From Thermococci archaeon (GTDB lineage Archaea > Hadarchaeota > B88-G9): a DNA stretch of 8,671 nt. The position numbers and the translations under genes were made by a program. The DNA is taken from the NCBI GenBank assembly GCA_003660555.1, contig QMUK01000053.1:1-8671 (forward strand). Direction: 5' to 3'. Position 1 is the first letter of the stretch, and each line of letters opens with the position of its first letter. The notes beneath the pieces were generated by a model. The model searched no databases. It was not told the origin of the DNA and saw only the letters and a list, made by a program, of their open reading frames with translations. Shown piece after piece: positions 5,352-6,498 of the stretch.

Positions 5352-5871
5352 TTCCTTCACCTCCATAGTATTCCTCCAGATAGTCTATCCCATAATAACC
5401 CTTTCTCCTGCCCCAGATGACATCCAGTATTTCGGATACTACCTCTTCTGGTCTCTTGCCACTCGTGTCTACTTCAAAAACCTTTTCTCCGTAGATCTCT
5501 CTGGCCTCGTATGAGCATATTCCAAGAGCTTCGCTTTCTAAATTGTCTCTTATTTTGTCCTCCGGGTATCTCCTGGACTTAAGTCTCTCTTCGAGTTCCT
5601 TAGGATTTGTTCTGAGAACTATGACCCAATCTGCATCTAATTCGAGTAGATGTGAGAGATGGCCTACCAATATATAATCATCTCTTCCTTTGAGATGTTT
5701 CGAGAGACATTCGATGTCTACTATGTATGTATCATCTTCTACGTCAAGATAGCACTTCCATTTCCTAACTAGGTCACTTATCTCCAACAATTCCAGTCCT
5801 AATCTATCTGAAAGGACTTTACCAACTAACGTCTTCCCGGTGCCTGGAGTGCCGGTCAATAGGAGTATCAT
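5257..5871 (-). CDS. AK6/Fap7-like nucleotide kinase (COG1936)
   Basis: This is a P-loop kinase of the archaeal AK6/Fap7 group (adenylate/CMP-kinase-related; the eukaryotic member also acts in small-subunit ribosome maturation). Walker A is GTPGTGKT (7-14). VGHLSHLL (69-76) and VIVLRTNPKELEERL (83-97) are followed by the lid-like SRRYPEDKIRDNLESEA (99-115) and EAREIYGEKVFEVDTS, all characteristic. The ATG at 5871 overlaps the ZPR1 stop by one base (TGATG) and is preceded by AGAGGT at 5878-5883 with 6-base spacing. The frame is 204 residues long, but family similarity appears to end near DYLEEYYG (163-170). The last 35 or so residues (rich in Pro, His, Ser) are encoded within the overlapping start of htpX and look like read-through into a second frame. 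Kinase identity is firm; the tail is doubtful as a functional part. Confidence 0.9.
   Translation of the reverse strand: MILLLTGTPGTGKTLVGKVLSDRLGLELLEISDLVRKWKCYLDVEDDTYIVDIECLSKHLKGRDDYILVGHLSHLLELDADWVIVLRTNPKELEERLKSRRYPEDKIRDNLESEALGICSYEAREIYGEKVFEVDTSGKRPEEVVSEILDVIWGRRKGYYGIDYLEEYYGGEGNAPVREDYPTHGPPDLSPHPSSRSHIHGHRI
5357..5364 (-). promoter_or_regulatory. Strong SD that sets the htpX start
   Basis: Minus-strand GGAGGTGA is fully complementary to the archaeal 16S 3' end and is followed by AGGAA then ATG (5351-5349). Spacing favours that ATG over the one at 5366. The SD lies inside the kinase reading frame. Confidence 0.8.
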
Positions 5872-6452
5872 CAGTATACCTCTATTCCGATTGTTCTTTT
5901 TAAGACGTTTGCCTCCTCCTCACTTAGTTCTTCTCTATCTATGGGGTATTCCTCATCGGAATAGAGCCCGCTATTCCCAAATGGGTCTTCTACTATTAGA
6001 GTAAACTCTAATTTCCCGTTTAATGCTAGCTTTATCTTGTTTCTTAGCTCAATGACCCTTTCTCTTTCTATCCCCTCTGAGTCCATCTCTAGGAGATCAG
6101 CTATCTCCATTACTCTGTGTAGAACACCCTCTACGTTTGAAACGAATCCTTGACAAGCCGGTCCTGGGTCTATTCTAACACCTAGCTCTGGAATCCGAAG
6201 GACCCCGGTGTTAGATCTGACTACTCTCACTTTCAGACCTTTTTCTCCTTTTATCTTGGCTTGGAACCTAGTTGGTTTCTTCACGTCCATTGCACTCACG
6301 TTTATGCTTCTGAATGAACAAACATTGCAAAACGATATGAACTCTAGTATCCTCCCCAAATAGGGAACGTCATCTACTCTGATTTTACTTACGAATTTGT
6401 CTGCACCACAAGAAGGGCACCTGCCTGAATAGAGTAAATATTCTTCTGGTAT
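5871..6452 (-). CDS. ZPR1-type zinc-finger protein with a probable ATA start
   Basis: Archaeal ZPR1 proteins are homologous to the eukaryotic zinc-finger factor ZPR1, which is linked to eEF1A biogenesis; the archaeal role is not settled. From an ATA at 6452 the protein has 193 residues. The zinc knuckle is C12-P-S-C15, then 26 residues, then C42-N-V-C45. The alpha/beta domain follows, with the family block DPGPACQGFVSNVEGVLHR and a C-terminal EDPFGNSGLYSD. The only in-frame ATG/GTG/TTG upstream of the body is TTG at 6359, which would remove C12 and C15. A TAA at 6455-6453 closes the frame upstream. A GGAGG lies 7 bases before the ATA. The gene leads a probable operon with the kinase, htpX and an ABC ATPase. 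The family is certain; the start is inferred and could instead reflect a sequencing error or a stop mutation. Confidence 0.85.
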   Translation of the reverse strand: MPEEYLLYSGRCPSCGADKFVSKIRVDDVPYLGRILEFISFCNVCSFRSINVSAMDVKKPTRFQAKIKGEKGLKVRVVRSNTGVLRIPELGVRIDPGPACQGFVSNVEGVLHRVMEIADLLEMDSEGIERERVIELRNKIKLALNGKLEFTLIVEDPFGNSGLYSDEEYPIDREELSEEEANVLKRTIGIEVY

Positions 6453-6459
6453 TTACATC

Positions 6460-6464
6460 CCTCC
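6460..6464 (-). promoter_or_regulatory. SD supporting the ATA start of the ZPR1 gene
   Basis: Minus-strand GGAGG is followed by GATGTAA (7 bases) and then ATA. The ATG inside that spacer is only one base from the SD and is followed at once by TAA, so it cannot start the ZPR1 protein. Confidence 0.55.
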
Positions 6465-6485: not shown

Positions 6486-6498
6486 CTCGCCAATCATT

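Follow-up and report, generated by a model that had tools for sequence, protein, structure and literature searches.

In the window, the 8,671-nucleotide stretch of DNA analysed here, the ZPR1 gene is probably translated from an AUA codon at 6452 and would be a normal gene. The source assembly, an archaeal metagenome of 1.295 Mb in 150 contigs, is 91% complete, and the window is its contig 67. On the (-) strand the start region ATCGGAGGGATGTAAATACCAGAAGAATAT reads GGAGG (6464-6460), G (6459), ATG (6458-6456), TAA (6455-6453) and ATA (6452-6450). The ATA is followed by IPEEYLLYSGRCPSCGADKFVSKIRVDDVPYLG..., and the frame stays open for 193 codons to TGA 5873-5871. Direct reading of the (-) strand agreed with the preliminary description that the frame is closed by TAA 6455-6453 with no ATG, GTG or TTG until TTG 6359, that ATA 6452 lies exactly 7 nt past GGAGG, and that an ATGTAA in the ZPR1 frame occupies the spacer. 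The same description had taken ATA 6452 to be the only ATN codon before the TTG; this is correct for the region ahead of CPSC, but an ATC is present downstream of that motif at codon 24 (6383).

Table 1. Features of the ZPR1 start region and coding sequence in the window
Feature	Position	Strand	Basis
ZPR1 coding sequence	5871..6452	(-)	ATA 6452 to TGA 5873-5871, 193 aa; PF22794 jr-ZPR1 E 1.1e-16, 2qkd alignment
Proposed start codon ATA	6450..6452	(-)	GGAGG + 7 nt; opposite Met1 of relatives; no ATG/GTG/TTG ahead of conserved Cys
Shine-Dalgarno GGAGG	6460..6464	(-)	7-nt spacing to ATA is the commonest pre-ATG spacing in the genome
ATG TAA start-stop pair	6453..6458	(-)	In spacer, ZPR1 frame; ATG 1 nt from GGAGG
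CPSC, first half of C4 zinc knuckle	6408..6419	(-)	Upstream of TTG 6359
TTG, first in-frame standard start	6357..6359	(-)	Resulting protein lacks CPSC
In-frame upstream ATG, 14-codon ORF MIGETLGYEIIGGM	6495..6497	(-)	ORF stops at TAA 6455; no Shine-Dalgarno

The neighbours of ZPR1, both on the (-) strand, are a methyltransferase gene (7165-6533) and a kinase gene (5871-5257) which we take to be AK6-like from its AAA_18 match. The ZPR1 stop and the kinase start share one base in the sequence TGATG (window 5871-5873). This overlap suggests translational coupling of the two genes and, if they are coupled, the ZPR1 AUA start may also set kinase output. The 14-codon ORF starting at ATG 6497 is probably outside the ZPR1 gene. 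An Rfam search of the whole window gave no match.

The encoded protein was identified by its jelly-roll domain (PF22794, residues 73-168, E 1.1e-16) and by phmmer comparison with the mouse ZPR1 structure 2qkd, in which residues 12-163 and 4-175 aligned to the two halves of the mouse protein. Read from the ATA, the C4 knuckle consists of CPSC at residues 12-15 and CNVC at 42-45. Both features expected of the ZPR1 family, the jelly-roll domain and a CxxC...CxxC knuckle preceding it, were therefore found. TTG 6359 corresponds to residue 32, after CPSC and before CNVC, and a protein started there would retain CNVC only. In an alignment of eight sequences C12, P13, C15, F20, P30, Y31 and G33 were invariant.

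Comparison with relatives, which the preliminary description had proposed, was made with 39 other ZPR1 loci, of which the same phylum contributed 16 and other archaea the remainder. All 39 have a standard start 2-16 codons ahead of the first Cys, and the window is the sole exception. Together with the eight-sequence alignment, these loci bear out the earlier proposal that CPSC and a conserved linker upstream of the TTG complete the C4 knuckle. Because this segment is conserved and every other locus has a standard start, the lack of one in the window is beyond chance. The ATA aligns to Met1 of in-phylum proteins (MEKREFELPLERCPLC, MRRQEFTLPIERCPSC and others), the window protein being one residue shorter. 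If the ATA is the start, the expected N-terminus is (Met)PEEYLLYSGR. A scan of contigs across genomes for ZPR1 detected distant relatives only.

The spacing of the start region points to the same codon. Genome-wide, ATG most often stands 7 nt past a Shine-Dalgarno (93 sites), followed by 8 (72) and 9 (60). With GATGTAA intervening, the ATA is at the mode of this distribution; for the start-stop ATG the spacing is 1, against an optimum of 7-9. The AUA thus occupies the expected position of a start. Probably the ATG-TAA pair is incidental and its ATG not an efficient start. Near-cognate initiation is indicated on both counts: there is no AUG, GUG or UUG before the conserved N-terminus, and the Shine-Dalgarno is at normal spacing.

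To place ZPR1 among other genes of the lineage, 957 kb (74%) of the window genome (G000) and 1.19 Mb of a second genome of the phylum (G001) were compared, using genes predicted by codon bias. G000 is the sole member of its family in the comparison set, and the phylum is represented by 27 other species. Among the Shine-Dalgarno-preceded starts in the 957 kb of G000, TTG was nearly as common as ATG (164 against 167). About eight more G000 genes, chosen partly by eye and then anchored on family models, have a near-cognate codon 7-9 nt past a Shine-Dalgarno and a standard start that is absent from the conserved N-terminus or badly placed. Four of these have ATA as candidate start. In ribosomal protein S17e (GAGGGGGTATAACC-ATA-GGAAGAGTG) position 1 of NCBIfam NF002242 falls on the ATA codon; in RpoL (GGGGGTGTTCTG-ATA-AAGGTG) position 1 of NF002239 does so, and G001 has ATG at the aligned place. 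In Cbf5 (GGGGTGATAGA-ATA) the distance to the conserved AE motif nearly equals that of the TTG in G001, and in an Lrp/AsnC-domain protein (GGAGGGGATGTGCC-ATA-GAGATATGTGCTTACGTA) the next standard start is 31 codons on. CTG is found in this position in the CTP synthase gene pyrG (L086:2448 (+), AAGGAGGGAGAAACT-CTG-ACCAAATACATC), with the next standard start within GGVMSGLGKG, and in ornithine carbamoyltransferase (L113:4231 (-), GGGGTGGTGGT-CTG), with the next standard start within the family core. The expected PyrG N-terminus, if CTG is used, is (Met)TKYIIVTGGVMSGLGK. XTP pyrophosphatase has GGAGGGGTAGAT-ACG, and an ATA five codons past the ACG is another possible start; AhaH perhaps starts at ATT and is less sure than the other candidates. 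No standard start precedes the conserved family core in PyrG, ornithine carbamoyltransferase, the Lrp protein or XTP pyrophosphatase. The three remaining ATA candidates have downstream alternatives at poor spacing, namely GTG +3 codons in S17e, GTG +2 codons in RpoL and TTG +10 codons in Cbf5. From these genes AUA initiation looks recurrent in the lineage rather than confined to ZPR1. At L083:3291 (+), a 134-aa coiled-coil ORF has GGAGG followed by ATA-ATA and lacks a standard start in its first 13 codons; it is possibly another AUA gene.

Similar candidates were found in the same phylum. In G001 the EF-1alpha gene (L158:1943 (-)) reads GGAGGGTCCGTT-CTG-TCTAAAAAACACATAAAT (CTG-SKKHINLLFMGHVDHGKST) and its next ATG lies within FMGHVDHGKST; CTG is its only plausible start. 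A pattern search for CTG-started EF-1alpha matched G001 alone, as did a start-free version of the pattern, and the search is thus uninformative on other species. SerA of G001 also has a CTG candidate, and ACG is the candidate start in its class III CoA transferase and in a PHP protein (GGTGAGGTAG-ACG-AGACTGGAC), where it directly follows a stop codon, as the ATA does in ZPR1. The best comparative case for near-cognate starts is S17e, whose putative start across 17 species is ATG in 12, TTG in one, ACG in three species of one genus (G001, G003 and G013) and ATA in the window genome. At the ACG loci (L183 in G001, L182 in G013 and L191 in G003), GGAGGTGGAAGA or GGAGGTGGGAGA is followed by ACG-GGAAGGGTG. 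As the Shine-Dalgarno and GGAAGGGTG are kept in all three species, the S17e ACG is no one-off error. The GTG three codons on is a conceivable start, but its spacing is 16.

A test on sequence alone required a Shine-Dalgarno of at least 5 nt, a codon at spacing 7-9, at least 8 codons to the first standard start and a positive coding signal between. Among the 31 sites obtained, six had ATA (expected 5.7%, p 0.007) and 11 had any near-cognate codon (expected 16.9%, p 0.01). This enrichment is modest, and the stronger support is the anchoring on family models, for candidates selected in part by eye. Automatic comparison of start codons between reciprocal best hits suffered from too much noise, as the N-termini are variable at 36-50% identity. 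Ranking start-less genes by coding potential alone yielded many false positives, because the GG triplets of Shine-Dalgarno sites resemble coding upstream extensions.

One G to A substitution is enough to convert a perfect ATG into ATA, so that an assembly base error, or a minority or strain variant, at 6450 could hide an ordinary ATG start 7 nt past GGAGG. The source is a metagenome assembly in 150 contigs, and an ATG here would be ideally spaced. We nevertheless consider this explanation unlikely on the error rate of the assembly. In 445 gene pairs (123,530 aligned residues), every stop lay ahead of a gene start, at the end of a gene or in a spurious ORF, and none of the conserved genes was clearly split by a frameshift, each case being judged by the author. 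With a stop-creating share of substitutions of 5.0%, the 95% upper error rate is ~1.6e-4 per base. Error would then cost at most ~0.3 start codons in 786 genes, whereas ~8 were observed besides ZPR1; the S17e ACG is, moreover, common to three species of another family. Sequencing error is thus an unlikely source of the missing starts, and the doubt on this point in the preliminary description is largely allayed, as is its doubt whether TAA might be a sense codon. An altered genetic code of that kind was rejected on the same 445 gene pairs, whose conserved bodies contain no in-frame stops.

The remaining explanations accept the sequence but place the start elsewhere or dispense with it. TTG 6359 is the first standard start in the frame and TTG is a very common start in this genome, yet translation from it, giving a short ZPR1 without the first CxxC, is very improbable: CPSC and the conserved linker, which relatives retain, would be lost, and the TTG has no Shine-Dalgarno at the right spacing (GATGACGTTCCCTATTTG). 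The preliminary description had weighed an AUA start against an older start whose second codon had mutated to a stop. Spacing and the recurrence of the pattern in other genes favour the former, and an ATG 1 nt from GGAGG speaks against the latter. Both that ATG (6458) and the one at 6497 are in frame with the TAA and ZPR1, and termination-reinitiation could help an AUA start. We give very little credence, however, to readthrough of the TAA from either ATG or to reinitiation at the ATA after the ATG-TAA pair, since the first ATG is too close to GGAGG, the second has no Shine-Dalgarno, stops are otherwise respected, and in-phylum relatives begin at about the ATA rather than upstream. An in-frame ATG-stop pair is also absent from the other near-cognate genes, and is thus not a shared mechanism. 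Finally, ZPR1 might be a fresh pseudogene that has lost its start; a ZPR1 match was absent in 43 of 101 sampled archaeal genomes, so archaea do not strictly require the gene. This is the least probable explanation, as the 193-codon frame is intact and its coding signal normal, the best Shine-Dalgarno spacing has been retained, and the same arrangement occurs in S17e, RpoL and PyrG, which are very unlikely to be pseudogenes.

In the proposed mechanism for AUA initiation at ZPR1, GGAGG would pair with the anti-Shine-Dalgarno and so place the 30S subunit, and the ordinary initiator tRNA-Met (anticodon CAU) would start at AUA despite a mismatch at the third position, so that the protein begins Met-PEEYLLYSGRCPSCG.... 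Relaxed start selection, extending to first-position (CUG) and second-position (ACG) mismatches, could serve several other housekeeping genes of this genome and would occur in a relative from the same phylum as well. Placement driven by the Shine-Dalgarno, combined with weak proofreading by aIF1/aIF2, may let AUA, CUG and ACG start at useful rates. Within the 74% of the genome covered, the initiator tRNA has anticodon CAT and three G-C pairs in the anticodon stem, and no tRNA with anticodon TAT was found. An altered initiator tRNA reading AUA as its cognate was rejected on the CAT anticodon of the initiator in that 74%. Genes for aIF1 and aIF1A are present in the genome. TTG makes up ~44% of Shine-Dalgarno-preceded standard starts in G000, compared with 20% in G001, indicating that tolerance of mismatches is already high. 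The natural suspect would be aIF1, by which complexes on non-AUG mRNA are reportedly destabilised (PMC6237735). We infer that initiation takes place at near-cognate codons with insertion of Met, and that weakened proofreading by aIF1/aIF2, not a special tRNA, makes this possible. As judged from the genes compared, there is about an even chance that the phylum uses AUA, CUG, ACG and perhaps AUU in this way as ordinary starts for ~1% of its genes, among them genes for ribosomal proteins, RNA polymerase and elongation factors.

Bacteria initiate poorly at AUA and CUG. For infC, ccpN and citZ of Staphylococcus aureus, AUA starts were identified by initiation profiling and reporters and gave ~10-30% of the AUG level (PMC13009471). 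ZPR1 resembles these genes in being an ordinary protein gene with a strong Shine-Dalgarno ahead of a natural AUA start, here predicted from sequence. S. aureus, however, is a bacterium with IF3 in which few genes are involved and AUA is seen as a brake on expression, whereas the present organism, an archaeon, has aIF1 and aIF1A, and its candidate genes include those for CTP synthase, a ribosomal protein and a subunit of RNA polymerase. For bacteria such as E. coli, values quoted in PMC11497404 include AUU in infC and pcnB, CUG at ~0.86% of AUG activity, and CUG as 0.024% of bacterial starts. Like the E. coli near-cognates, the codons described here differ from AUG by one base and would be read by the initiator tRNA; the E. 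coli cases are single and mostly regulatory, while here ~1% of the genes inspected would be involved, with several types of codon. A review of archaeal initiation names AUG, GUG and UUG as starts and does not mention AUA or CUG (PMC7531240). The window genome is like the archaea reviewed there in its Shine-Dalgarno-led mRNA, initiator tRNA and aIF1/aIF1A genes. We found no report of an AUA-started archaeal gene in the open-access literature, although one may exist elsewhere, and none of CUG starts in archaea in the literature searched. The one match was a laboratory strain in which the ATG of nadA had mutated to ATA (PMC11834397).

Gene callers restricted to ATG, GTG and TTG would cut short or overlook conserved proteins in genomes of this kind, as with ZPR1 at TTG 6359. 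If true, the use of AUA and CUG as starts for housekeeping genes by one lineage would offer a natural test of start proofreading by aIF1/aIF2, a system shared with eukaryotes.
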